A stretch of DNA of 32,979 bases from Anaerolineales bacterium (GTDB lineage Bacteria; Chloroflexota; Anaerolineae; Anaerolineales; UBA6663), in assembly GCA_020845955.1 (NCBI GenBank), contig JADLEU010000229.1:1-32979 (forward strand), given 5' to 3'. Numbering within the stretch: position 1 is the stretch's first letter; the number at the start of each line of letters is the position of its first letter. Positions 3,552-32,936 of the stretch are shown here, one piece after another. Below the pieces are notes generated by a model. That model saw only the letters and a list, made by a program, of their open reading frames with translations. It was not told the origin of the DNA and ran no database searches. Position numbers and translations under genes: made by a program.

Positions 3552-3580
3552 TTGAATCGGCCTCGCCAGTCTGTTAGAAT
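3552..3580 (+). promoter_or_regulatory. Sigma-70-type promoter of dnaA
   Basis: TTGAAT at 3552-3557 and TAGAAT at 3575-3580 are separated by exactly 17 bases, in a locally AT-rich patch. The start of transcription would be near 3587, leaving a leader of about 200 bases before the dnaA ATG. The longest possible dnaA reading frame begins on the TTG of this -35 element, so that start cannot be used on this transcript. Confidence 0.65.
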
Positions 3581-3785
3581 TCGCGTCGCTGCCGGAAACG
3601 AAACCTGGCAACCTAATTGGCGGCCATCATCCCTTCCCAATTCACAGGTCAAGGGGGCAGGGCAGCGCTGTCCATCAGCGGCGGTCTTCTCGCGCCCCGC
3701 GAAGGCCAAGGCCAGCGCGTGGCGGCAGCAGCGGCCGCCTGGCGCAGCCGAACACCGGACTCCTCTTCGCGCAGGGAGAATGCCG

Positions 3786-5150
3786 ATGCAGCCTGATCAA
3801 GTCTGGCAAGCGGCCCTTGGCCAACTGCAAATGGAAATCCCCAAGAGCACCTTCGATACCTGGGTCCGCGGCACCGCGCTGGTGGCCCAGGAGGAGGACG
3901 CTTACGTTGTGGGAGTCAACAACGCCTATGCCAAGGACTGGCTGGAGAACCGGCTGCAGGGCACGGTAAAGCGCACCCTCACCAACCTGGTCGGCCGCAG
4001 CGTCGATGTCCACTTCGTCGTCGCTCCCGCCAGCAGCGCGCCGGCGCCTAACAGCATGGGGACAGACCCGGGTGACCAAGCGCCTGAAGGCGCTAGCGGC
4101 GCGCGGCTCGCCGCGCTGAGCTCGTCCACGCTCAACCCGAAGTACAAGTTCGAGTCGTTTGTCGTTGGGCCGAGCAATCGCCTGGCGCACGCGGCCTGTA
4201 TGGCCGCGGCCGAGAACCCGGCCAAGGCTTATAACCCGCTGTTTGTCTACGGCGGCGTTGGGCTGGGGAAGACCCACCTGCTGCAGGCCGTGGGCAATGC
4301 CTGCCGGGCGCGCGGCCTGGCCGTGCTATATGTCTCTTCCGAGGAGTTTACCAACGACCTGATCAACGCCATCCGCAACCACACCACGGAAGACTTCCGC
4401 GACAAGTATCGCAGCATCGATGTGCTCTTGATCGACGACATCCAGTTCATCGCCGGCAAGGAATCGACCCAGGAAGAGTTCTTCCACACCTTCAACACCC
4501 TGCACGGGCAGGACAAGCAGTTGGTGATGACGTCAGATCGCCCGCCCAAGGCCATGGTGACGCTGGAAGAGCGGCTGCGCTCGCGGTTCGAGTGGGGCTT
4601 GACGGTCGACATTCAGCCCCCCGACCTGGAGACGCGCCAGGCCATCCTGCGCACCAAGGCCGAGCGCGCCCGGCGGCAAGTGGACGACGCCGTCATTGAG
4701 TTGATTGCGCGCCGCGTGCAAAGCAACATCCGCGAGCTCGAAGGCGCGCTGACGCGCGTGCTGGCCTACGCCGACCTGATCGGCCAGCCCTTGACCATGG
4801 ATCTGGCCACCTCGGCCCTGGCGGATCTGCTGCCGCGCCATCGCACGCTGGCCGCGCCGCAGATCATCGACACGGTGGCGGGGTTCTACACCGTGACGAG
4901 CGCCGCCCTGCTGGGACCGGACCGGACCAAAGAAGTGGCCCTGGCCCGCCAAGTCGCGATGTACCTGCTCCGCGAGGAGACCGAGGCTTCGCTACCGGCT
5001 ATTGGCGAAGCGCTCGGCGGCCGCGACCACACCACCATCATGTACGGCTGCAGGAAGATTGCCGACATGATCGAGCGCGATGACAGCCTGCGCCGCCAGG
5101 TGATCTCGCTCCGCGAACGCCTGTACAGCCAGGTCGGCGTCCCAGCCTGA
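3786..5150 (+). CDS. dnaA: Chromosomal replication initiator DnaA
   Basis: 454 residues from the ATG at 3786, the normal DnaA size. DnaA binds DnaA boxes as an ATP-bound oligomer and opens the origin. Domain I (about 1-85, VWQAALGQLQMEIPKSTFDTW) is followed by a short variable linker rich in Ala, Ser and Pro. The AAA+ domain then has Walker A GGVGLGKT (residues 156-163), Walker B VLLIDDIQF (213-221), sensor-I TSDRP and the arginine-finger segment RLRSRFEWGL. Domain IV ends with the DNA-binding signature GGRDHTTIMYG (411-421). The start is supported by AGGGAG at 3773-3778, seven bases before this ATG; the in-frame ATG at 3780 is too close to that site. Reading further upstream would run into the promoter. 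dnaN does not follow, unlike the classic dnaA-dnaN-recF order. Confidence 0.97.
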   Translation: MQPDQVWQAALGQLQMEIPKSTFDTWVRGTALVAQEEDAYVVGVNNAYAKDWLENRLQGTVKRTLTNLVGRSVDVHFVVAPASSAPAPNSMGTDPGDQAPEGASGARLAALSSSTLNPKYKFESFVVGPSNRLAHAACMAAAENPAKAYNPLFVYGGVGLGKTHLLQAVGNACRARGLAVLYVSSEEFTNDLINAIRNHTTEDFRDKYRSIDVLLIDDIQFIAGKESTQEEFFHTFNTLHGQDKQLVMTSDRPPKAMVTLEERLRSRFEWGLTVDIQPPDLETRQAILRTKAERARRQVDDAVIELIARRVQSNIRELEGALTRVLAYADLIGQPLTMDLATSALADLLPRHRTLAAPQIIDTVAGFYTVTSAALLGPDRTKEVALARQVAMYLLREETEASLPAIGEALGGRDHTTIMYGCRKIADMIERDDSLRRQVISLRERLYSQVGVPA

Positions 5151-17136: not shown

Positions 17137-18906
17137 ATGCCCTTTAACCCCCAGAACCCCCTCGTCGTCCAGTCTGACCGCACCGTACTGCTCGAAGTCC
17201 AAAGCGATCTCTACGAGAGCGCGCGCGATGCACTGGCCCGCTTCGCCGAGCTCGAAAAGAGTCCCGAATACCTGCACACCTACCGCCTGACGCCGCTCTC
17301 GCTCTGGAACGCCGCCGCGGCCGGGCTGACCGCGCCCGACATCCTCGGCGCCCTCGAGCAGTATTCCAAGTACGACCTTCCCAGCAACATCCGCGCCGAG
17401 ATCGCTGAGCAGGTTGGGCGTTATGGCCGGGTGCGGCTGCTGCGCCGCGGCGAGGCGCTGGCGCTCGAGTCCGGCGACGAGGCCCTCATCGCCGAATTGG
17501 CCCGCCACAAGGCCGTCGCGCCCCTCATCCGCGCCCAACCCGACGCCCGCACCCTGCTGACCGACCGGGCCGACCGCGGGCGCCTCAAGCAGGCCCTGGT
17601 GGGCGTCGGCTACCCGGCCCAGGACGAGGCCGGCTACACCGACGGCCGCCATCTGCCCCTCCGCCTGCGCGCCCCGGCCCTGAGCGGAGAGCCGTTCGCC
17701 CTGCGCCACTACCAGCAGGCGGCCGTGCAGGTCTTCCACGCGGGAGGCGCGGCCAGCGGCGGCAGCGGCGTCATCGTCCTGCCCTGCGGTGCGGGCAAGA
17801 CCCTGGTGGGCATGGGCGTCATGGCCGCCCTGCAGACCGCCACCCTCATCCTCACGCCCTCCACCGTGGCCGCGCGCCAGTGGATCGCCGAGTTGCTCGA
17901 CAAGACCACCCTCACGCTTGAGGAGATCGGCGAGTACTCGGGGCTGGAGAAGGAGATCCGGCCGGTCACCATCGCCACCTATCAGATCGTCAGCTACCGC
18001 TCGCGCCGCAGCCAGGCCTTCCCGCACTTTTCTCTCTTCGACCGCGAGGACTGGGGCCTGATCATCTACGACGAGGTCCACCTGCTCCCGGCCCCGGTCT
18101 TCCGCATCACGGCCGACCTGCAGGCCCGCCGCCGCCTGGGGTTGACGGCCACGCTGGTGCGCGAGGACGGGCACGAGAAGGACGTCTTCTCCCTCATCGG
18201 ACCCAAGAAGTACGACGTGCCCTGGAAAGTGCTCGAGAAGCAGGGCTGGATCGCCACCGCCGAGTGCCACGAGATCCGCCTCAACCTGCCGGCCGATCAG
18301 CGCCTGGAATACGCGCTGGTGGACGACCGCGAGAAGTACCGCTTCGCAGCCGAGAACCCGGTCAAGCTGGCCGTGCTCGAGCAGGTGCTGGCCAAGCATC
18401 AGCGCGACAGCGTCCTGGTCATCGGCCAGTACCTCGACCAGCTCGATCAGATCGCCGCGCGGCTGGGCGCGCCGCTCATCACTGGCCAGACGCCGGTGGC
18501 CGAGCGCGAGCGGCTCTTTGCGGCTTTTCGCGCCGGCGAGGTGGCCTGCCTGGTGGTCTCCAAGGTTGGCAACTTCGCCGTCGACCTGCCCGACGCCAAC
18601 GTCCTCATCCAGGTCTCGGGCACCTTCGGCTCGCGCCAGGAGGAGGCCCAGCGCTTGGGCCGCATCCTGCGCCCCAAGCGCAACGGCCTGCTGGCCCACT
18701 TCTACACCCTGGTCACGCGCGAGACGCGCGACCAGGAGTTCGCCGCCAACCGCCAACTGTTCCTCACCGAGCAGGGCTACCACTTCGACATCCTCTACGA
18801 GCACGAGGTGGCCGGCTGGAAGCCAGCCACCCTGGCGGCCGAGGCGTATGTGGTTCGCCGGCCTCCTCCGGCCCTGCCCGCAGCCGCCCCCGAGCCGTCC
18901 GGCTGA
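17137..18906 (+). CDS. XPB/ERCC3-type superfamily 2 DNA helicase
   Basis: 589 residues. XPB is the 3'-5' translocase of nucleotide-excision repair and transcription factor IIH; bacterial and archaeal homologues exist but are poorly understood. Motifs in order: FALRHYQ (188-193), Walker A PCGAGKT (216-222), Ia LTPST, DEVH box (312-315), LTATLVRED with motif III and the XPB-specific RED triplet (342-344), motif IV/V (VVSKVGNFAVDLP) and motif VI QEEAQRLGRILRP (501-513). An N-terminal domain (about 1-175) resembles the damage-recognition part of XPB. All catalytic motifs are intact. Its TGA shares one base with the ATG of the SWIM protein gene, and a third gene overlaps that by four bases, so the three form one coupled operon. 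The C-terminal Pro/Ala tail is disordered. Confidence 0.95.
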   Translation: MPFNPQNPLVVQSDRTVLLEVQSDLYESARDALARFAELEKSPEYLHTYRLTPLSLWNAAAAGLTAPDILGALEQYSKYDLPSNIRAEIAEQVGRYGRVRLLRRGEALALESGDEALIAELARHKAVAPLIRAQPDARTLLTDRADRGRLKQALVGVGYPAQDEAGYTDGRHLPLRLRAPALSGEPFALRHYQQAAVQVFHAGGAASGGSGVIVLPCGAGKTLVGMGVMAALQTATLILTPSTVAARQWIAELLDKTTLTLEEIGEYSGLEKEIRPVTIATYQIVSYRSRRSQAFPHFSLFDREDWGLIIYDEVHLLPAPVFRITADLQARRRLGLTATLVREDGHEKDVFSLIGPKKYDVPWKVLEKQGWIATAECHEIRLNLPADQRLEYALVDDREKYRFAAENPVKLAVLEQVLAKHQRDSVLVIGQYLDQLDQIAARLGAPLITGQTPVAERERLFAAFRAGEVACLVVSKVGNFAVDLPDANVLIQVSGTFGSRQEEAQRLGRILRPKRNGLLAHFYTLVTRETRDQEFAANRQLFLTEQGYHFDILYEHEVAGWKPATLAAEAYVVRRPPPALPAAAPEPSG

Positions 18907-21311
18907 TGCCCGCCCCCCTCAAGCCGCTGGCTCTGTCGGAGCCCGAGCTCAAGCGGATCTTCGGTCCCAAACGCCTGGCGCGCGCCGAGCGCAACCTGCT
19001 GGCGGGCCATCCGGCGTTGCGCCAGCGCTACCACAACAACGTCCTCCTGACGCATTGGGCCAGCGCCCCCGACGCGCCGCAGCAGATCCTGTTCTCCGAC
19101 CGGGGCGAGCCCGGCTTTGACTGCACTTGCCCGGCCTGGCAGAGGGGCGACGACTGCGACCACGTCGTCGCCGCGGCCCTGGCCTGGGTGCGCGACCCAG
19201 GCAGCTTCGCGCCGCAGCCGGAGGCCTTTGACTTCGACCAGTTCTACGCCGACCGCGGCTACGATGAGGTCGTTCTTGGGGATGACTTCGACGACGACCT
19301 CGACGAAGAACTGGCTGAAGACTCTGAAGAGGACGACTTTGAGGAGGACTTCGACGAGGCCGACGCCTCCGAATTCGGCGCATCGCTGACCGCTGTCGTG
19401 TCCGAGTCCGCGCCGGGGACCGAGGGTGAGCCGGCCCTCATCACCGTTGGCCTGGAGGTGCCCGACCTGGCGCCCGCCTACCGCGAGGTGCTGTCCGCGC
19501 TGACCCTGCCGCAGATGCGGGCGCTGGCCGAGCGCCGCGGCGTGCGCCTGCCGGGCAACAAGCGCGAGCCGGCCTTGGACGCCCTGGCCCAGGCGCTCTC
19601 GCGGCCGGGCGCGCTGGCCGAGGTCTGGCCGAGCCTATCGCCTGCCGCGCGCCTGGTGCTGGGCGCCCTGCCGTATCTCACCACCTACATGGGCGTCATG
19701 CGCGCTCAGCTCCCGCCCGTGCTCGATGCCCTCCAGCCCAAGCTGGGCCAGCGCGCGGAGACGGCCCTGGAAGAACTGCGCGAGGCCGGATTGGTGGTGG
19801 CCGGCAACTACGGCGCGCTGGCCTGGCCGCGCGGCCTCCAGCTGCGCCTGCCCCCCGACCCCGACCTGCTCCCACCCCGGCCAGACAGCGGCAGGCTGCG
19901 GGTGCGGGCTGCCCCGCCGGGCCTGGCCTTCGCCGCGCTGACCTCCAGGCTGCTGGCGGCGCTGCACGGGGCCGCGCCCACACTGCGCGTCCGCCCCGCC
20001 CGTGAGCCCCACCCGCTGGAGCTCAAGTTCTTCGGATCGGGCCAGCAGTGGCCTTACGAGCCCGGCGAGCTCGAGGCCCTGGCCTTGCAGCCTAACGCCC
20101 AGCGCGCCCTGCGCCAGTACAGCCTCAGCGTGCCGTTAGCGCCGCCGCTGCTCGACGACGCCTCCCACGAGGCCCTGGCACGCGAACAGGCCGTCGACCC
20201 ATTGGTGCTCAACTTTGCCCTCGGCCTGCTGCGGGCGCTGGGCCAGGTTGAGATGCCTCCCGGGCAGGCGCCGATGGTCAACGCGCAGACCTTCGTGGGC
20301 TTTCTCAGCCAGCACCCGCTGCTGCTGGCGCTGCCGCTCTTCACCGCCTACCTGAACGACACGAGCTGGACTGAGTTTGACCTGGCGCGCCGGCGCGATC
20401 CTGATCTTATCCTCGGACATCCCGCGCAGCCGGTCTTCAATTTTAGCTACAGCCAACTGCTCCAGGTGCTGGCCTCGGCGCGCGCCGCGCTGATCAAGCT
20501 GCTGCGCCGCGCGCCGGCCGGCGAATGGATTGCGCTGGACACGGTCGTGGACCGCGCCTACGCCCTCAACGCCCAGAACGGGCTATGGCCCGCGCCGGGC
20601 ACCGTGATCCTGTTCCACCAGGGCCAGAACCTCAACGGCGCGCATGAGACCGACTGGCGCCGCTTCTACACGCCCTATCTGGAAGCTATTGTCGCCGGGC
20701 CGCTGCATTGGCAGGGCCTGATCGACCTGGGCTACGACAAAGACCAGTTGGTTGCTTTCCGCCTGACCACGCTGGGCGCGTTCGTGCTCCTCCAGCTCGA
20801 GACCCTGGCGGCGCCGGCCATGAGCCAGGGCACCTCGACGCTGGCCTTCTTGCCTGGTGGCGGGCTGCGGCTGCGGCCGGCGGGCGCCAAAACCGAGTTA
20901 GTACGCCTGTTGGGCCAACTCGGCCAGGTGAGCGCCGGGCCAGACGGCACGCTGGATTACGCCGTGAGCGCGCAGGGCGCCAGCCAGGCGCTGCGGTCCG
21001 GCTGGAGCAGTGACCGCATCTTGGCCGTCCTGGCTGATGGCGCCGGCGCGCCCGTGCCCGCCGAGTTGGCCGGCCGCCTGCGCGAGTGGGAGGCGCGCAC
21101 CGGCGAGGTGCAGCTCTACGAGCGCCTGGCGCTGGTTGAGTTGGCCGACGATTACGCCCTCGACGAGCTGCTGGCGGGGACCTCGCTGGCGCGTTACCTG
21201 CTGTACCGTTTCAGCCCGCGGCTAGTGGCCATTCGGCCGGAGGGCGTCGAGGCGCTGCGCGACGAATTGGTGGCCAGGGGCTACACGCCCCGGCTGGAGA
21301 CTGGCCCATGA
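18906..21311 (+). CDS. SWIM zinc-finger protein with acidic tract and helicase-associated C-terminus
   Basis: 801 residues; the ATG at 18906 overlaps the XPB stop by one base. A SWIM finger occupies residues 73-86 (CTCPAWQRGDDCDH, C-x-C-x8-C-x-H), a zinc motif that binds DNA or protein. It is followed by a strikingly acidic segment at about 118-157 (DDFDDDLDEELAEDSEEDDF) that could mimic DNA or contact a basic partner. The C-terminal part (about 645-801) resembles the helicase-associated domain (Helicase_C_3 type) also found in the third gene. The region in between (about 170-640) is helical and unassigned; one stretch (LPQMRALAERRGVRLPGNKR) looks like a SAP-type DNA-binding helix pair. The reading frame is open upstream inside the XPB gene, but that part is an Arg-rich shadow. 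It probably loads or regulates the helicase. Confidence 0.85.
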   Translation: MPAPLKPLALSEPELKRIFGPKRLARAERNLLAGHPALRQRYHNNVLLTHWASAPDAPQQILFSDRGEPGFDCTCPAWQRGDDCDHVVAAALAWVRDPGSFAPQPEAFDFDQFYADRGYDEVVLGDDFDDDLDEELAEDSEEDDFEEDFDEADASEFGASLTAVVSESAPGTEGEPALITVGLEVPDLAPAYREVLSALTLPQMRALAERRGVRLPGNKREPALDALAQALSRPGALAEVWPSLSPAARLVLGALPYLTTYMGVMRAQLPPVLDALQPKLGQRAETALEELREAGLVVAGNYGALAWPRGLQLRLPPDPDLLPPRPDSGRLRVRAAPPGLAFAALTSRLLAALHGAAPTLRVRPAREPHPLELKFFGSGQQWPYEPGELEALALQPNAQRALRQYSLSVPLAPPLLDDASHEALAREQAVDPLVLNFALGLLRALGQVEMPPGQAPMVNAQTFVGFLSQHPLLLALPLFTAYLNDTSWTEFDLARRRDPDLILGHPAQPVFNFSYSQLLQVLASARAALIKLLRRAPAGEWIALDTVVDRAYALNAQNGLWPAPGTVILFHQGQNLNGAHETDWRRFYTPYLEAIVAGPLHWQGLIDLGYDKDQLVAFRLTTLGAFVLLQLETLAAPAMSQGTSTLAFLPGGGLRLRPAGAKTELVRLLGQLGQVSAGPDGTLDYAVSAQGASQALRSGWSSDRILAVLADGAGAPVPAELAGRLREWEARTGEVQLYERLALVELADDYALDELLAGTSLARYLLYRFSPRLVAIRPEGVEALRDELVARGYTPRLETGP

Positions 21312-23620
21312 GCGCCGGCCTGCCGGAGCTGTTCGAGCGCTACAATTCGGCCGCGGTGACGGCCATGGCCAGCTTTCACGGGCTGCCACACCCGCGCCCC
21401 AAGGGCGAGCAAATCGCCGCGCTGGCGCGGCTGCTGCGCGCTCCCGAACAGGTGCGGCGCAGCCACGCGGACCTGAGCGCCGCCGAGCACGCCCTGCTCG
21501 AAGCGATCCTGCAGCGCGGCGGGCAGGCCAGCACGCGCGCGCTGCGCGAAAGCCTGCAGGCCCAGGGCCTGGTGGAGTCTGGCCCACCGGGCCGCGACCG
21601 GCCCAATCCGCGCGCCGCCCGCTCGCGCAGATTCGGCGACGTGCTCGCTCGGCTGATGCTGCGCGGCCTGGTCTTTCCGCTCGAGCCCGCGCCCGAACCC
21701 AACTATGGCGGCACGCCGCCCAAGCTCAACTTCGAGCGCGTGCCGGCCATGGTTTTCGTCCCCCAACCCATCCGCCAGCACCTGCCCGCGCCCGCGCCCG
21801 CCAAACCGGTATTCGGCGCTGTCCCGGCCGTCGCCCACGAACAGGAGAGCTCGGCGCGCGTCTTCCAGCGCGACCTGTATCTCTATTGGAGCTTTGTCTG
21901 GGGCCAGCCGCTGATCCTCACCGCCAAGGACGAGCCGCATAAGAGCGCGCTGCGCGACATCGCCGGACGGCTGCTGGCGCGCGTTGAGATCGGCAAGGGC
22001 CTGGGCGAGCTCGATCACCCGCGCCTGCGCTTCCTGCGCCTGCTGTTGGCCGATCTGGGCTTGATTGCCCTTGCCGGCGACCGGCAGTGGGCGGCGAGTG
22101 AGACGGCCGATGAGTTCTTCGGCCTGCCGCCCGCCGAGCGCGTCCAGCGCAGCTACGAGGCCTGGCGCCTCAGCCGCCGCTTTAGCGAGGTCGTGCTGCT
22201 GCCCGCGGGCGCGCGCCCCGCCAAGCTTGGCCCCGCGCAGCTCGAGGCCGGCCCTCCCATCCAGCACGCCCGCCAGGTCGTGCTCCAGGCGCTGGCCGGC
22301 TCCGCCCGCGCCGGCTGGGCCGCGCTGGATGACCTGGTGACGCACCTGCGCGAGACCGATTACGAGTTCCTTATCCCGCGCCCGGCCGAGCTGCCTTACG
22401 AGCACTTCTACCACCCCGACCCCTACGACGCCATGCACAATCCTATTGGCGCCAACTTCCCGCCGATGCGCGGCGAGGCCGACGGCTGGGCCAAGGTCGA
22501 GGCCAATTTTATCCGTGGCATCGTCTTCGGCCCGCTCTATTGGCTTGGCCTGGCTGACCTGGGCTGGAAGGAGGCGCCGCCAGCCGCTGGCCCGCCCGAC
22601 GCGCTGCGGCTGACGCCGCTGGGGCTGTGGGTGCTGGGGCGCGGCCCGCGGCCCGAGATCCCCGCCGAGGGCGGGCGGGTGGTCGTGCAGCCCAACCTGC
22701 ACATCGTCGCCCTGGACCCCATCAACGATGCCACGCTGGTGTCGCTCGACCGCTTCGCCGAGCGCCTCAGCGCCGAGCGGGCCGTCGAATACCGGCTGAC
22801 GCGCGCCTCGGTCTACCGCGGGCAGCTCGCCGGGTGGGACGCCGCCCGCATCCAGGGCTTCTTGCGCGAGCAGACCGGCGCCGAGCTGCCCGGCAACGTC
22901 GCCCGCACCCTGGACGAATGGCAGGCGCAGCACGAGCGCATCGTGCTGCGCTCGGACGTCACCCTGGCGCACGGCCCGGCCCAACTCTTGGCCCGCCTGG
23001 CCGAAGATCCTCGCCTGAGCGCCCTCATCGCCGCGCGGCCGCTGCCCGAGGTGCTGCGCCTGGCCGGGGCCCAGGCGCTGGGTTCGGTGGTCGAGGCGCT
23101 CGGCGCGCTGGGCACCCTGCCGCTGGTGAGCGCCGCGGCCGAGGTGCCGGCCAACGCGGTCGAGGCCGAGGAAGACGGCCGGGTGCGGCTGCTGGCGCCG
23201 CGGCCCAACCTCTACCTGCATGGCCACCTGGCGGCTTTTGCCGACCCGGCCGGCGACGGCGCCTACCAGATCTCGGCCCTTAGCGTGTCGCGCGCGGCGC
23301 GCGCTGGGCTGGGCGCGGCCGACGTGCTCCAGCAGCTGAGCGCCGTCCACCGCGGCCCGGTGCCAGCCGGGCTGGCGCGCCGCATCCGCGCCTGGGCCAA
23401 GCACTACGGCGACGCCGCTCTCGAGGAGACCGTGCTGCTCCAGGTGCGCGACGCCAACACGCTGGCCGAACTGCTGGCCGATCCCGAGTTGGCCCCGCTG
23501 CTCAAGCCCTTCAAGCCGTCGACGCGCCGCGCCCTGGCGCGCGTCCGCCCCGAGGACCTCGAAGCCCTGCGCGCCCGCCTGGCTGAGCGCGGCGTCGACC
23601 TCAAGCCCAGGCTCGAGTAA
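21308..23620 (+). CDS. Helicase-associated protein with two tandem C-terminal domains
   Basis: 770 residues; its ATG overlaps the previous stop as ATGA. The N-terminal half is helical and divergent. Residues about 457-600 form a helicase-associated domain (GRVVVQPNLHIVALDPINDA, FAERLSAERAVEYRLTRASV, LPGNVARTLDEWQAQHERIV). A second, more degenerate copy covers about 625-770 (QISALSVSRAARAGLGAADV, VPAGLARRIRAWAKHYGD, and the end LRARLAERGVDLKPRLE). The second copy parallels the end of the SWIM protein (LREWEARTGEVQLYERLALV, LRDELVARGYTPRLE), so the two proteins are distant paralogues. Related proteins occur beside XPB in actinobacteria. No nuclease or ATPase motif is visible. It is likely a structural partner of the helicase and the last gene of the operon. 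Confidence 0.82.
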   Translation: MSAGLPELFERYNSAAVTAMASFHGLPHPRPKGEQIAALARLLRAPEQVRRSHADLSAAEHALLEAILQRGGQASTRALRESLQAQGLVESGPPGRDRPNPRAARSRRFGDVLARLMLRGLVFPLEPAPEPNYGGTPPKLNFERVPAMVFVPQPIRQHLPAPAPAKPVFGAVPAVAHEQESSARVFQRDLYLYWSFVWGQPLILTAKDEPHKSALRDIAGRLLARVEIGKGLGELDHPRLRFLRLLLADLGLIALAGDRQWAASETADEFFGLPPAERVQRSYEAWRLSRRFSEVVLLPAGARPAKLGPAQLEAGPPIQHARQVVLQALAGSARAGWAALDDLVTHLRETDYEFLIPRPAELPYEHFYHPDPYDAMHNPIGANFPPMRGEADGWAKVEANFIRGIVFGPLYWLGLADLGWKEAPPAAGPPDALRLTPLGLWVLGRGPRPEIPAEGGRVVVQPNLHIVALDPINDATLVSLDRFAERLSAERAVEYRLTRASVYRGQLAGWDAARIQGFLREQTGAELPGNVARTLDEWQAQHERIVLRSDVTLAHGPAQLLARLAEDPRLSALIAARPLPEVLRLAGAQALGSVVEALGALGTLPLVSAAAEVPANAVEAEEDGRVRLLAPRPNLYLHGHLAAFADPAGDGAYQISALSVSRAARAGLGAADVLQQLSAVHRGPVPAGLARRIRAWAKHYGDAALEETVLLQVRDANTLAELLADPELAPLLKPFKPSTRRALARVRPEDLEALRARLAERGVDLKPRLE

Positions 23621-23745
23621 GCCGCTACGCCCGCGGCCCGGCCGCACACCGCCTACCCGGCCCCAATCGGGCGCTTTCCAGGCGCGCGGCGGGCGGCGGG
23701 CCACTTTATGCAAACAGGACCTTGTGGAGCGCCGGCCGAACGCCG

Positions 23746-23751
23746 TATACT
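23746..23751 (+). promoter_or_regulatory. -10 box of the DUF1361 gene
   Basis: TATACT, with TTGTGG 18 bases upstream (23722-23727) as a weak -35. It lies 37 bases before the ATG at 23789, leaving a leader of about 30 bases. Confidence 0.45.
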
Positions 23752-23788
23752 GCTCCGAATCTTGTCGCGTTCCACCAACCAAGGACCT

Positions 23789-24535
23789 ATGGTCAAACTG
23801 CTGCGCTCCATGATCCGCCACTATCGCCAGATTGCCGTGCTTGCCGCCCTGCTCTTTGCCACCGCGCTTTGCCTGGCGCTGCTGGCGGCGCGTGTGGTCC
23901 ACGCCCGCGACTTTGGATACATCGGGTTCGCGTGGAACCTCTTCCTGGCCTGGCTGCCCATGCTGTGCGCCCTGCTGGCCTACAATTTGTATAAGCCGCG
24001 CTCGCGCCTCAGTTGGCGGACACTTGCACCGCGCGGAAGCGCATTTGTCGTGGCCGGCTGCGCCATCGTCTGGCTGCTGTTCTTTCCCAACGCGCCCTAC
24101 CTGCTGACCGACATCCTGCACCTGGCGCCACGGCCGGGGGTGCCGTTGTGGTATGACCTGATCCTGGTGATCGCTTTTGCCTGGACCGGCTCGCTGCTGG
24201 GGTTGGTATCGCTGTTCCTGATGCAGATGCTGGTGAGCCGGGCGGCCGGCCCGCTGCTCAGCTGGGGGTTTGCGCTGGGCGTGCTGGGCCTGAGCGGCTT
24301 CGGCATCTACCTGGGGCGCTTCCTGCGCTGGAATAGTTGGGACGTGCTCCTCAACCCGGCGCCGCTGCTGGCCGACATCCTCAGCCGGCTACAGCACCCG
24401 CTGGCCAATTGGCGCGCCTTTGCCTTCTCGGGGTTGTTCTCGCTCGTCTTCCTCTCGGCCTATCTCACCTTCGCGGCTCTGGCCCACTGGCAGTGGGAGC
24501 GGCCGGCCACCCAAGAATTACGCGATCATTCCTGA
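23789..24535 (+). CDS. DUF1361 integral membrane protein
   Basis: 248 residues from the ATG at 23789 (AAGGA upstream), with six or seven transmembrane helices. The signature of DUF1361 is clear: FAWNLFLAWLPMLCALL, VWLLFFPNAPYLLTDILHL, WYDLILVIAFAWTGSLLGLV and FGIYLGRFLRWNSWDVL. The family is widespread in bacterial membranes and of unknown function. An upstream in-frame ATG (23708) would add 27 residues that overlap the promoter and lack family similarity, so the later start was chosen. It follows the XPB operon by about 170 bases and has its own -10 box, so it is probably a separate unit. Confidence 0.9.
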   Translation: MVKLLRSMIRHYRQIAVLAALLFATALCLALLAARVVHARDFGYIGFAWNLFLAWLPMLCALLAYNLYKPRSRLSWRTLAPRGSAFVVAGCAIVWLLFFPNAPYLLTDILHLAPRPGVPLWYDLILVIAFAWTGSLLGLVSLFLMQMLVSRAAGPLLSWGFALGVLGLSGFGIYLGRFLRWNSWDVLLNPAPLLADILSRLQHPLANWRAFAFSGLFSLVFLSAYLTFAALAHWQWERPATQELRDHS

Positions 24536-29691: not shown

Positions 29692-29765
29692 GGGCGCAGA
29701 CCTTCTTGGCCGCGCCTGGCGACAGCCAACCGGCCAAGCGTCAGCCAGCGGCAACGCGGTTCCCA

Positions 29766-32700
29766 ATGGATTGTCCCAATTGTGGCCGGGCCAACCGGCC
29801 GCAAGCCAACTTCTGCCGCTACTGCGGCATGCACTTCGCCCTGGCGTGCCCGCGCTGCCGCGCGGTGCTGCCCGACGATGCCGTCTTCTGTGACCAGTGC
29901 GGCCAGCAGCTCGGCCAGGCCCTGCGAATACCCCCGTCCCAGGCAGCCGCGCCAATCGAGCGCGCCGCAGCCCCTGCGCCGGCCGCGCCTGTGCCAGCCA
30001 GCGCGGCCTCGACGGCTGGCGGTGAGACGCGCCCAACCGCTATGCCGGCCCTGGCACCTCAACTCCAGCAGTACATCCCGCCCGAGTTGATGCAGAAGCT
30101 CGAGGTGGCCCGCGCCAGGGGCGAGATGGTGGGCGAGCGCCGCGTAGTGACGATGCTGTTCTGCGACGTGAAGGGTTCGACGGCCGCTGCCGAGCAGTTG
30201 GACCCAGAAGACTACGGCGAGATCATCAACGGCGCGTTCGAGCACATGATCAAGCCGGTCTACAAATACGAAGGCACGCTGGCGCGGCTGATGGGGGATG
30301 CCATCCTAGCTTTCTTTGGCGCGCCGATCGCCCACGAGGACGACCCGCAGCGCGCCGTGCTGACCGGGCTCGAGATCGTTGACGGCATGGACGCCTACCG
30401 CACGCAGGTGCTGCAGAAGTGGGGCCTCGACTTCAACGTCCGCGTCGGCATTAACACCGGCTTGGTCGTCGTCGGCGCGGTCGGCTCTGACCTGCGGCTG
30501 GAGTACAGCGCGCTGGGCGACGCGATCAACCTGGCCGCGCGCATGGAGCAAACCGGGGCGCCGGGGACGGTCCAGATCGCGCACGACACCTACAAGCTGA
30601 TTACGGGGTTGTTCGACTTTGAAGCGCTCGGCAGCCTCCCGGTCAAGGGCAAGAGCGAACCCGTGCGCACGTACCGGGTGCTGCGGCGCAAGGCCTTCGC
30701 GGCGCGCTCGCGCGGGATCGAGGGTTTGCAGGCCGAGATGGTCGGGCGCGACTTCGAACTGCAGGTGCTGCGAGGCATCATGGCCGACCTGCAGCGCGGC
30801 GTGGGCCGGATTGTCTGTGTGTTGGGCGAGGCCGGGTTGGGAAAGAGCCGCTTGATCAGCGAAACGCGCCTGGAGTTCAACGCGGCGGGCGGCGCCGAGC
30901 ACCAATGGCATGAGGTCGGCAGCCTGTCGTACGAAAGCAACCAGGCCTACGCGCTGATCCAGCGCCTGATCCGGCGCGTGTATGGCCTGCCTTACAACAG
31001 CCCGCCCGCGGCGGTGCGCGAGAAACTGGCGGTGCTGGCGGACCGCCTGCCGGAGGCGCAGCGCCCGCACGCCCTGCCGGTGCTGGGCGCGCTGTTTGGC
31101 CTGGAGGGCGCCGCTGGGGAACTGGCGCTGGAGGGTGAGACCTTTAAGCGCGAGCTGCTCGAGACGATGCGGGCCTGGTGGCTGGCTGATTTCTCAACAG
31201 CGCCCACGGTGCTGGCGTTCGACGACACGCATTGGGGCGATGCCGCCTCGATCGAGCTGCTGCGGCAATTGCTGTCCCTCACGGCCAGCATACCGCTGGT
31301 GCTGATTTTCGCGCTGCGGGCTGAGCGCCAGGCCCCGGCCTGGCAGTTGAAGGTGCTGGCTGGCGACGATTACCACCACCGCTACACCGAGGTCGGGCTG
31401 CATCCGCTCTCACCAACCGACAGCGCGGAGTTGCTCAACCGCCTGCTGCTCAATCCCGAGCTGCCCGACCGCCTGCGCGCCAACATCCTCGAGAAGGCGG
31501 GCGGCAACCCCTTCTTTATAGAAGAAGTGGTCCGCGCCTTGATCGAGCGCGGCCTGGTGTTTGTCGAGACACGGTCGATCGCTGGGGAGACGCGGCGGGT
31601 CTGGCGGGCGACGGATGAGGGCGCCGATTTTGCCATCCCCAACAATGTGCAGCTGCTGTTGGCGGCGCGGCTAGACCGGCTGGAGGAAGCGACGCGTGGA
31701 ACGCTGCAGGTGGCCTCGGTCATCGGCCGCTCATTCTACCATCGTGTTTTGGAGGCGGTGGACGAGGCCGCCTCAGACCTGGACCAGCGCCTGGGCGCGC
31801 TGATGCAGTTGGATATGATCCGCGAGGCGGCGCGGGTTCCCGAGGTGGAGTACGCCTTCCGCAACCCGATGACGCAGGAGGCCGTGTACAAGACGATCCT
31901 GGTTAAGCGGCGACGCGTCTTTCACCGCCGGGTGGCCGAAGCCATCGAAGCGCTGTACCCAGACCGGCTGGAAGGGCTGTGCGGCCTGCTGGCGCACCAC
32001 TTCACCCTGGCCGGGCAGCGCGCGCGGGCCATCGAGTATGACCGCCGGGCAGCCCGGCAGGCGCTGACGGTGTTTGCCTATGACGACGCGCTGCGCAGCC
32101 TGCGCGGTGCACTGGACCTGGTCGAGCCGGAGGTGGCCGGCGAGGTCCACCCGATCCTGCTGGAGGAACTGGCCGACGTCCGCCGGCTGCTGCGCGACGG
32201 CAGCGGCGCCATCGAGGCCTACCAGCAGGCGCTGGCGCTGCGCCAGACCCGATCCGGCGATCCATATGACGCCGTGCGCCTGCAGCGCAAGATAGTGCAG
32301 GTCGTGACCGAGCTCAAGTGGTCGGTCGGCCTGGAGACCCTGCAGCAGCTGGGTGAGGCGGGGCAGCAGGCGCGGGCCGGGCTGGCTGGCGCGCGCGAGC
32401 GCCTGCGAAGCCAGCCACCGCACTTGGAGACCGTTCGCATGCTGGTGGCGCTCTCGGCGGATGCGTGGCGCATCCAGGAGCCGCCGGACTGGGAGGCAGC
32501 CGAGCGCTACGCGCAGGCGGCGGTGGATATGGCGCGGCAACTCGATAGCCCGCTGGATCTCTCCCAGGCATTAGGCGCCCTGGCGAATGTTTTGGACGGG
32601 GCCAGCCGGTTGCGCGAACATCTGGAGGTGGCCGAACAGCGGCTGGCGCTGTGCCAGGCGGCCGGGCTGGAAGACGTGCATGAGCGCATTGAGGCGCTCC

Positions 32701-32936
32701 GCTCGGCGGGCGCGGCGCGGGTGTACGTCGGCGAGTATCAGCCAGCTCTCCTCTACCTGCGCGAGGCCGCCGCGCTGGCCGCGCAGGCCTACGCGGTCGA
32801 GCAGCAAGCCAATGCGATCGGGCTGCAGCAGCAGTGCTGGTTCCGCCTGGATACGTGGGACGAGGTGCTGAAACTTGAGGATCAGTGGCGCGCGCTAGAG
32901 CGGCGTTATGCTCGCGAGCGCGTGGGGGAAACCTGA
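29766..32936 (+). CDS. Zinc-ribbon class III adenylyl/guanylyl cyclase with AAA ATPase and TPR-like repeats
   Basis: 1056 residues from the ATG at 29766, where MDCPNCG begins; the frame is open 20 residues further but that part is not family-like. Two zinc ribbons come first (Cys3/6/17/20 and Cys28/31/42/45). After a Pro/Ala linker comes a class III cyclase domain (about 122-310) with the metal aspartates Asp134 in LFCDVKGST and Asp178 in MGDAILAFFG, then VRVGINTGLVVVGAVG and ALGDAINLAARME. The STAND-type ATPase follows (Walker A GEAGLGKS near residue 360, Walker B TVLAFDDTHWGD) and then helical TPR-like repeats. Such proteins couple signal sensing to nucleotide synthesis. The TGA at 32934-32936 may be premature: the same frame continues FFVALSAAVHALRG without a stop to the window end, so the gene may be longer or interrupted. 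Confidence 0.88.
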   Translation: MDCPNCGRANRPQANFCRYCGMHFALACPRCRAVLPDDAVFCDQCGQQLGQALRIPPSQAAAPIERAAAPAPAAPVPASAASTAGGETRPTAMPALAPQLQQYIPPELMQKLEVARARGEMVGERRVVTMLFCDVKGSTAAAEQLDPEDYGEIINGAFEHMIKPVYKYEGTLARLMGDAILAFFGAPIAHEDDPQRAVLTGLEIVDGMDAYRTQVLQKWGLDFNVRVGINTGLVVVGAVGSDLRLEYSALGDAINLAARMEQTGAPGTVQIAHDTYKLITGLFDFEALGSLPVKGKSEPVRTYRVLRRKAFAARSRGIEGLQAEMVGRDFELQVLRGIMADLQRGVGRIVCVLGEAGLGKSRLISETRLEFNAAGGAEHQWHEVGSLSYESNQAYALIQRLIRRVYGLPYNSPPAAVREKLAVLADRLPEAQRPHALPVLGALFGLEGAAGELALEGETFKRELLETMRAWWLADFSTAPTVLAFDDTHWGDAASIELLRQLLSLTASIPLVLIFALRAERQAPAWQLKVLAGDDYHHRYTEVGLHPLSPTDSAELLNRLLLNPELPDRLRANILEKAGGNPFFIEEVVRALIERGLVFVETRSIAGETRRVWRATDEGADFAIPNNVQLLLAARLDRLEEATRGTLQVASVIGRSFYHRVLEAVDEAASDLDQRLGALMQLDMIREAARVPEVEYAFRNPMTQEAVYKTILVKRRRVFHRRVAEAIEALYPDRLEGLCGLLAHHFTLAGQRARAIEYDRRAARQALTVFAYDDALRSLRGALDLVEPEVAGEVHPILLEELADVRRLLRDGSGAIEAYQQALALRQTRSGDPYDAVRLQRKIVQVVTELKWSVGLETLQQLGEAGQQARAGLAGARERLRSQPPHLETVRMLVALSADAWRIQEPPDWEAAERYAQAAVDMARQLDSPLDLSQALGALANVLDGASRLREHLEVAEQRLALCQAAGLEDVHERIEALRSAGAARVYVGEYQPALLYLREAAALAAQAYAVEQQANAIGLQQQCWFRLDTWDEVLKLEDQWRALERRYARERVGET

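Follow-up and report, generated by a model that had tools for sequence, protein, structure and literature searches.

The locus described here raises the question of whether bacterial XPB works alone or with TFIIH-like partners. A study of M. tuberculosis XPB considered a TFIIH-like complex improbable for the bacterial enzyme, since other subunits had not been found, while allowing for unknown partners (PMC3353954). The function of bacterial XPB was still called elusive in a 2026 review (PMC13024598), and no report of a bacterial p52 or TFIIH was found in the open-licence literature, which is weak evidence of absence. The window, the whole stretch of 32,979 nucleotides from an Anaerolineales bacterium (Chloroflexota; contig JADLEU010000229.1), carries a three-gene operon for which we favour, with a probability of roughly two in three, the following reading: an XPB double-strand DNA translocase with two p52/TFB2-type subunits, corresponding in bacteria to the XPB-p52-p8 arm of TFIIH (ERCC3-GTF2H4-GTF2H5; Ssl2-Tfb2-Tfb5 in yeast).

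Operon architecture and genomic linkage

The operon consists of the following genes:

17137..18906, + strand: XPB/ERCC3-type SF2 DNA translocase, 589 aa (NF045503 repair_heli_XPB, 859.6 bits, cut-off 610; ERCC3_RAD25_C, 161 bits; all motifs intact)
18906..21311, + strand: P2, SWIM-finger p52/TFB2-like protein, 801 aa (Pfam SWIM and Helicase_C_3; pLDDT 83.1; Foldseek)
21308..23620, + strand: P3, p52/TFB2-like protein with an extra unit of clutch and C-terminal domain (CTD), 770 aa (pLDDT 90.8; Foldseek)

The stop of XPB overlaps the start of P2 by one base (TGATG) and the stop of P2 overlaps the start of P3 by four (ATGA), so that the ORF coordinates bear out the operon and its 1 bp and 4 bp overlaps as first described in the initial annotation. 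The helicase, also described there as intact, belongs to the NF045503 family by a wide score and has GAGKT at 218 (motif I), DEVH at 312 (II), RED at 342 (within LVREDG) and QRLGRILR at 505 (VI). No Rfam or tRNA features were found in the window.

All three genes occur together on 53 of the 63 P3-bearing Chloroflexota contigs, most of the exceptions being contig ends. Because the same operon recurs in this way, it is neither chance nor an assembly accident, and the conserved linkage on which the initial annotation had made its proposal depend was found. Across 400 genomes of the phylum, a P3-like protein is present in 61/64 with XPB and in 58/336 without it (Fisher 1e-34, a value not corrected for the kinship of the genomes). 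Apart from these three genes the neighbourhood shows no conserved family (maximum 5/53 loci), and an SOS/LexA-type box, GAACn(2-7)GTTC, lies upstream of XPB in 2/79 regions, equal to shuffles. A 1223-aa ORF resembling an XPB-P2 fusion (L126) is not relied on, its P2 being frame-shifted further along. At another locus (L132) a p52-like gene adjoins an XPB whose match is without the N-terminal domain (NTD); a separate SWIM gene also adjoins this XPB.

These counts bear on a reading in which P2 and P3 make up a separate complex for DNA binding or regulation, with XPB a mere neighbour. Ktedonobacteria hold P2 and P3 together and apart from XPB, and some genomes that lack XPB encode P2-like proteins of 550-600 aa next to unrelated metabolic genes, both of which would fit such a complex; however, the linkage at 53/63 loci, the P3-like gene in 61/64 XPB genomes and the XPB/p52-like neighbours in three further phyla make it improbable. 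XPB, P2 and P3 are likely to belong to one multi-subunit complex, and we infer that it may be stoichiometric.

Clutch-type domains in XPB and P3

The N-terminal part of XPB contains two regions with relatives in P2 and P3:

17158..17427, + strand: XPB NTD (Helicase_C_3; p52-clutch fold family), residues 8-97 (Pfam, hhalign)
17422..17646, + strand: post-NTD region of XPB, residues 96-170, akin to the CTDs of P2 and P3 (hhalign)

Pfam Helicase_C_3 matches XPB with 124.5 bits over residues 9-130. This domain, first described in the partner proteins as a tail, is XPB's own NTD, of a fold common to the p52 clutch. Against an hhalign background in which unrelated domain pairs score under 2%, the XPB NTD aligns with the clutch domains of P2 and P3 at 98.0-98.2% probability, and residues 96-170 align with the CTDs at 93% (P2), 88% (P3 unit 1) and 49% (P3 unit 2).

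P3 is divided as follows:

21449..23119, + strand: p52-like part, residues 48-604 (p52 40-461 of 9pd3_D, Z 13.8, 378 residues)
22667..22942, + strand: clutch 1, residues 454-545 (XPB-NTD structure match; Tfb2 in orthologues)
22940..23119, + strand: p8/TFB5-like domain 1, residues 545-604 (TFB5 structures)
23159..23413, + strand: clutch 2, extra unit absent from p52, residues 618-702 (profile search, hhalign)
23414..23611, + strand: CTD 2, residues 703-768 (hhalign)

The first 17 PDB matches of the P3 AlphaFold model (pLDDT 90.8) in Foldseek are all p52/TFB2, with 8ebs_D the best (E 7.4e-9). The winged-helix half without the clutch matches p52 6tru_D (Z 9.8, 157 residues), clutch 1 matches the XPB NTD of 7egb_6 (Z 14.3, rmsd 1.9, 91 residues) and the domain that follows it matches TFB5 (3dom_B, Z 7.0, 56 residues; 3dgp_B, Z 6.7). 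Clutch 2 is related to the human XPB NTD by profile search (E 1.2e-6) and to the XPB NTD by hhalign (98.2%), and CTD 2 to the CTDs of P2 (96.4%) and of P3 unit 1 (95.9%). The two helicase-associated domains noticed earlier in P3 are present as two Helicase_C_3 stretches, at 112 bits in Pfam.

At the sequence level, a P3 profile recovers yeast TFB2 from PDB sequences (E 0.003), and Pfam Tfb2 matches 31/52 P3 orthologues at E<=1, on clutch 1 and just upstream. Among the orthologues scanned singly, that of L158 alone exceeds the Tfb2 cut-off (38.4 bits against 34.5), with a match that begins 44 residues before the clutch. Window P3 has no Tfb2 (PF03849) match at E<=1 and falls short of the curated cut-off, and is therefore labelled p52-like rather than Tfb2; Tfb2 is likewise not among the matches of window P2, which is also below that cut-off.

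P2 and its optional SWIM finger

The features of P2 are as follows:

18918..19241, + strand: N-terminal SWIM region, residues 5-112 (ZSWIM8 match, Pfam)
19122-19163, + strand: zinc-ligand motif (SWIM) within the N-terminal SWIM region
19263..19382, + strand: acidic, poorly ordered tract, residues 120-159 (23 D/E of 40; pLDDT 38-48)
19518..21287, + strand: p52-like part (winged helices, clutch and CTD), residues 205-794 (alignment to p52)
20823..21110, + strand: clutch domain (Helicase_C_3), residues 640-735 (structure match, hhalign)
21108..21302, + strand: CTD, p52-CTD/p8-like, residues 735-799 (p52 alignment reaches residue 461)

The first 18 PDB matches of the P2 AlphaFold model (pLDDT 83.1) in Foldseek are all p52/TFB2, and residues 205-794 of the model are co-linear with p52 18-461 of 8ebt_D and 26-461 of 9pd3_D (Z 12.1). 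The clutch matches the XPB NTD of 7o4l_7 (Z 13.0, 95 residues), its Pfam Helicase_C_3 score being 34.5 bits, barely over the cut-off of 34.2, and the CTD matches TFB5 (3dom_D, Foldseek probability 0.96, E 1.2). In the winged-helix half, p52 (Z 9.4) is matched no better than unrelated winged helices (Z 9.5).

The SWIM finger reported earlier is present as the motif CTCPAWQRGDDCDH (residues 73-86), with both the CxCx(n)CxH pattern and a Pfam PF04434 match (23.5 bits against a cut-off of 19.6). The surrounding region resembles the N-terminal region of ZSWIM8 (Z 10.0, 105 residues), whereas the remainder of P2 is unmatched to ZSWIM8. In the initial annotation, this finger and the acidic tract were proposed to recruit or regulate the helicase, a mechanism in keeping with both elements in the window and with the SWIM gene that adjoins XPB at L132. 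However, the SWIM motif occurs in just 18/49 P2 proteins, and the acidic tract beyond window P2 occurs only at L164, L168, L172 and L173 (5/49 P2 proteins in all), so neither is a conserved means of recruitment and that mechanism is now decidedly unlikely. Both are optional and lie outside the core of the system.

Relation to TFIIH

P2 and P3 are, judged from their sequences, full-length paralogues, each forming its own clade in a tree (support 0.87 and 0.88). Their C-termini had been noted as related; the kinship is far wider, the profiles aligning over 559 columns (E 5e-48). In the predicted models both are co-linear with the whole of p52, with the winged-helix array, clutch and p8-like CTD in identical order, so that a system first described as not nameable can be named as p52/TFB2-like by fold match. 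Whole-chain TM-scores to p52 are low (0.2-0.3) because the domain arrangement differs, and the p52 likeness is therefore one of domain order and of individual domains. The p8 resemblance of the modelled CTDs is structural and not at sequence level: Pfam Tfb5 has no match in the window's own genome, and a profile of the P2 and P3 CTDs gave chance matches only, without p8.

XPB with its NTD is present here as in TFIIH. TFIIH has a single p52 whereas the Chloroflexota operon has two p52-like subunits, of which P3 has a second clutch and CTD unit and P2 may bear a SWIM finger, and the operon is without a separate p8 gene. Of the other TFIIH subunits, the search covered XPD-type (DEAD_2), with one 950-aa ORF, and TFB5, with none.

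The likeness could also have arisen by convergent assembly, in which the N-terminal unit of XPB (clutch-type and p8-like) was copied and joined to winged-helix arrays in bacteria, apart from eukaryotic p52, so that P2 and P3 would work like p52 without full-length homology. The presence of this two-domain unit within XPB itself, the commonness of winged-helix arrays and Tfb2 scores far below those of Helicase_C_3 all lend this some weight, although p52 ranks above XPB in both fold searches, the Tfb2 matches start upstream of the clutch and the winged-helix half of P3 by itself matches p52, which leaves convergence the less probable course, at perhaps one chance in four.

Archaeal XPB has a dedicated partner too, Bax1, and the operon partners here might suggest a helicase-nuclease machine of that type; Bax1 is a nuclease, whereas P2 and P3 have no nuclease domain and a p52-like fold, so this reading is barely credible. 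Nuclease families are absent from P2, P3 and their orthologues, as the initial annotation had found for this operon. An anti-phage or anti-plasmid system, hinted at by a weak likeness to PADLOC PbeA (77.6 bits) confined to the helicase, is very unlikely, given no PADLOC match beyond chance for the partners (best P2 E 0.046, P3 none), no conserved neighbouring gene, whether nuclease, methylase or other, and no plasmid homologue of P3 (tblastn with window P3). A known anti-phage system was accordingly rejected. Phage homologues of XPB amount to a single unverified faecal contig.

Candidate XPB partners in other bacterial phyla

In Actinomycetota, Deinococcota and Bacillota, too, p52-like proteins are encoded next to XPB or in its vicinity (Actinomyces, Nonomuraea, Nocardia, Tsukamurella, Paenibacillus and Deinococcus). 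Three Deinococcus plasmids carry XPB, a small p8-like ORF and a p52-like gene in a row; in this arrangement (L238, L242 and L243) the partner families are those of the Chloroflexota operon. The p8-like domain is there a separate protein of 99-115 aa, giving a parts list that resembles the eukaryotic one, and the small ORF has no p8/Tfb5 match at sequence level. A 99-aa neighbour in Actinomyces was considered as p8 and rejected as not p8-like. In actinobacteria and Bacillota, a single Helicase_C_3 protein, akin to P3 and annotated as 'helicase-associated domain-containing protein', is encoded next to XPB or within a few genes of it; these loci have one partner, no SWIM finger and variable order and spacing, in contrast to the two partners in Chloroflexota. 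We take Rv0861c-Rv0862c of M. tuberculosis to have the same arrangement.

The odds are about even that bacteria own a homologous XPB-p52(-p8) module, such that one TFIIH arm would be older than eukaryotes or stand outside them, with a duplicated p52 and optional SWIM finger in Chloroflexota and three parts with a free p8-like protein in Deinococcus.

Proposed mechanism and significance

In human TFIIH, a factor for transcription and DNA repair, p52 is the subunit by which XPB is held, through its NTD. The XPB NTD and the p52 clutch form a described dimer (PMC6422496), and p52/p8 have been described, with respect to XPB, as 'activator and speed limiter' (PMC7708078). By analogy, the XPB NTD of the bacterial translocase would dock on a clutch of P2 and/or P3, the two like domains forming a pseudo-symmetric pair. 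P2 and P3 may, in addition, pair with each other, because the operon encodes four clutch-type and four p8-type domains, which suffices for two pairs of each. DNA or another partner would be held by the winged-helix arrays, together with SAP or SWIM where present, and P2 and P3 could couple and restrain the XPB ATPase in the manner of p52/p8. The motor would in this way be brought to duplex DNA to open or remodel it. The most likely setting, we infer, is DNA repair or the removal of stalled complexes, in a genome that also encodes UvrA.

With a p52-like candidate encoded next to it, whether bacterial XPB has TFIIH-like partners can be tested directly, and the lack of such a partner could account for the large excess of purified bacterial XPB that DNA unwinding requires. 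Such operons could give small, culturable models (e.g. Deinococcus) of the XPB-p52 clutch that is hit by human disease mutations, and could bear on the origin of TFIIH.

The operon and its genes

The three-gene operon proposed in the initial annotation was confirmed, with all three open reading frames at exactly the positions given there:

17137-18906, XPB helicase, 589 aa
18906-21311, P2, SWIM-finger p52-like protein, 801 aa, its start overlapping the XPB stop by one base
21308-23620, P3, p52-like protein with two Helicase_C_3 domains, 770 aa, in ATGA overlap with P2

XPB scores 859.6 bits against the NCBI equivalog model "DNA repair helicase XPB" (cut-off 610) and its helicase motifs are all intact. 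In P2, Pfam recognises one Helicase_C_3 domain and, at 23.5 bits, a SWIM finger; P3 has two Helicase_C_3 domains. The next gene encodes a DUF1361 membrane protein (23708-24535), absent from the conserved neighbours in the linkage survey. The source assembly comprises 6.06 Mb in 431 contigs. Elsewhere in the window, dnaA (3552-5150) precedes the operon by 12 kb in the same orientation, and 29706-32936 encodes a 1076-aa protein with a double zinc ribbon, an adenylate/guanylate cyclase domain and an AAA ATPase domain.

P2 and P3 resemble the TFIIH subunit p52/TFB2

Profile-profile comparison aligns P2 with P3 over 559 columns (E 5e-48), and by sequence the two are paralogues; P3 ends in an extra unit. 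P2 proteins and P3 proteins each form their own clade in a tree, so the duplication is old. AlphaFold models built from 52 (P3) and 49 (P2) orthologues reached pLDDT values of 90.8 and 83.1, and when all solved structures were searched with them, the first 17 hits for P3 and the first 18 for P2 were TFIIH p52/TFB2 chains (best E 7.4e-9 and 1.8e-8, respectively). Nearly the whole length of p52 is covered, residues 40-461 aligning on 48-604 of the P3 model (Z 13.8) and residues 18-461 on 205-794 of the P2 model. The clutch, the p52 domain that grips the XPB N-terminal domain in TFIIH, superposes on that XPB domain in both P3 (Z 14.3, rmsd 1.9) and P2 (Z 13.0), and the P3 domain after it matches TFB5/p8 (Z 7.0; 3dom_B, chain identity checked). 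Whole-chain TM-scores of the predicted models against p52 are low because the domain arrangement differs, and the winged-helix match of the predicted P2 model to p52 ties with unrelated winged helices.

Sequence support for this likeness is weaker than the structural support, but independent. At E<=1, the Pfam family Tfb2 matches 31 of the 52 P3 orthologues, one of which (locus L158) exceeds the curated cut-off (38.4 bits, residues 399-508) in a match that begins 44 residues before Helicase_C_3. Searching with the P3 profile brings up yeast TFB2 (E 0.003) as well as the N-terminal domain of human XPB (E 1e-6). Since the window's own P3 has no Pfam Tfb2 match at E<=1, we term these proteins "p52-like".

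The clutch-type domain is common to XPB, P2 and both P3 units (hhalign probability 98-99%), and the domain following it occurs once in P2 and twice in P3, with a weaker counterpart in XPB (49-93%); as a control, the two different domain kinds score below 2% against each other. XPB and P2 carry one of each and P3 two, so the operon holds four clutch-type and four following-type domains. The strongest rival explanation is convergence, in which the likeness of P2 and P3 to p52 would derive from this shared unit. In TFIIH, p8 pairs with the p52 C-terminal domain. The XPB N-terminal domain pairs there with the p52 clutch (PMC6422496), and by analogy the operon's four domains of each kind would pair two by two.

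Linkage across Chloroflexota

Scanning genomes with the P3 alignment gave 72 loci, and linkage was counted in the 63 whose P3 was good (L149-L211); the named relatives are Chloroflexota and the remainder uncultured bacteria. The association of the three genes held up, the full trio being present in 51 of 63 loci, or 53 counting weaker P2 matches in L151 and L152. Loci without it are mostly cut off by contig ends, L158 being a genuine exception in which P2-P3 is present and XPB is not nearby. Gene order is XPB-P2-P3, or P2-P3-XPB in L164, L168 and L172. No further conserved family was found around the trio, the commonest neighbour family occurring in 5 of 53 loci. An extra Helicase_C_3 protein of 610-660 aa adjoins the trio at L149:6734-8566, L150:923-2881, L187:4178-6007 and L202:4632-6617. 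At L126:8008-11679, XPB and P2 share one 1223-aa frame with a frameshift further on in P2, either a natural fusion or a sequencing error.

Among 400 genomes sampled from the phylum, XPB was found in 64 and a P3-like protein in 119, the two occurring together in 61 of the 64 XPB genomes (Fisher p ~1e-34, uncorrected for phylogenetic relatedness). In a few genomes, G229, G256 and G270 among them, an XPB N-terminal domain can by itself just reach the cut-off for a P3-like protein, but these genomes also have separate, stronger hits. In Ktedonobacteria, P2-like and P3-like genes adjoin and XPB sits elsewhere.

Optional parts and XPB-free relatives

The SWIM finger and acidic tract, to which the initial annotation gave a part in recruiting or regulating the helicase, are both present in the window but optional in the family, occurring in 18 and 5 of 49 P2 proteins; a weak SAP match occurs in 13 of 49. 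A variant operon (L132:8448-13273) encodes a p52-like protein, an XPB of 511 aa matched without the N-terminal domain, and a separate 565-aa SWIM protein. Because this last follows XPB, SWIM proteins do associate with the XPB system, and are its accessories. P2-like proteins also occur without XPB, beside unrelated genes, in many Anaerolineae-type relatives, and the family therefore has roles beyond XPB. Free-standing P2-like proteins of 550-600 aa were seen in XPB-free relatives (L133-L147, e.g. L135:9256-10899), their genes often adjoining a YegS/diacylglycerol-kinase-type gene.

Putative XPB partners in other bacteria

On annotated replicons, XPB has a gene for a "helicase-associated domain-containing protein" (NCBI) as a direct or close neighbour in Actinomyces (L235), Tsukamurella (L236, with five intervening genes), Paenibacillus (L239, where the genes overlap) and Deinococcus (L238, L242, L243), and unannotated relatives lie near XPB in Nonomuraea and Nocardia. 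P2/P3 profiles match every one of these neighbours. Three Deinococcus plasmids have, between XPB and the p52-like gene, an ORF of 99-115 aa annotated only as hypothetical, whose C-terminal 60 residues score 41-54 bits against the profile of the P3 C-terminal domain:

L238:7762-8061, p8-like ORF
L242:6755-7102, p8-like ORF
L243:6759-7088, p8-like ORF

In its parts list the Deinococcus trio resembles the eukaryotic TFIIH arm: motor, clutch subunit and putative small subunit. XPB and a 929-aa Helicase_C_3 ORF also occur on an unverified "bacteriophage" faecal contig (L241, MT836665.1), which is probably bacterial DNA.

Proposed working

Bacteria (PMC3353954) and archaea (PMC7672443, PMC13024598) have been said to lack a TFIIH-like complex, and no report of a bacterial p52 was found in the open-licence literature. 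In TFIIH the clutch recruits XPB (PMC6422496), and p52/p8 activate and also limit its ATPase (PMC7708078); by analogy, P2 and/or P3 would seat XPB and couple the movement of this translocase to DNA gripped by the winged helices. On its own, M. tuberculosis XPB has to be in large molar excess to unwind DNA (PMC3353954), which is how a motor without its partner would be expected to behave. Since UvrA (1400 bits) and one DEAD_2 (XPD/DinG-type) ORF are encoded in the genome, XPB is no replacement for UvrABC. The cellular setting that we favour for the proposed complex would be repair or the removal of stalled complexes.
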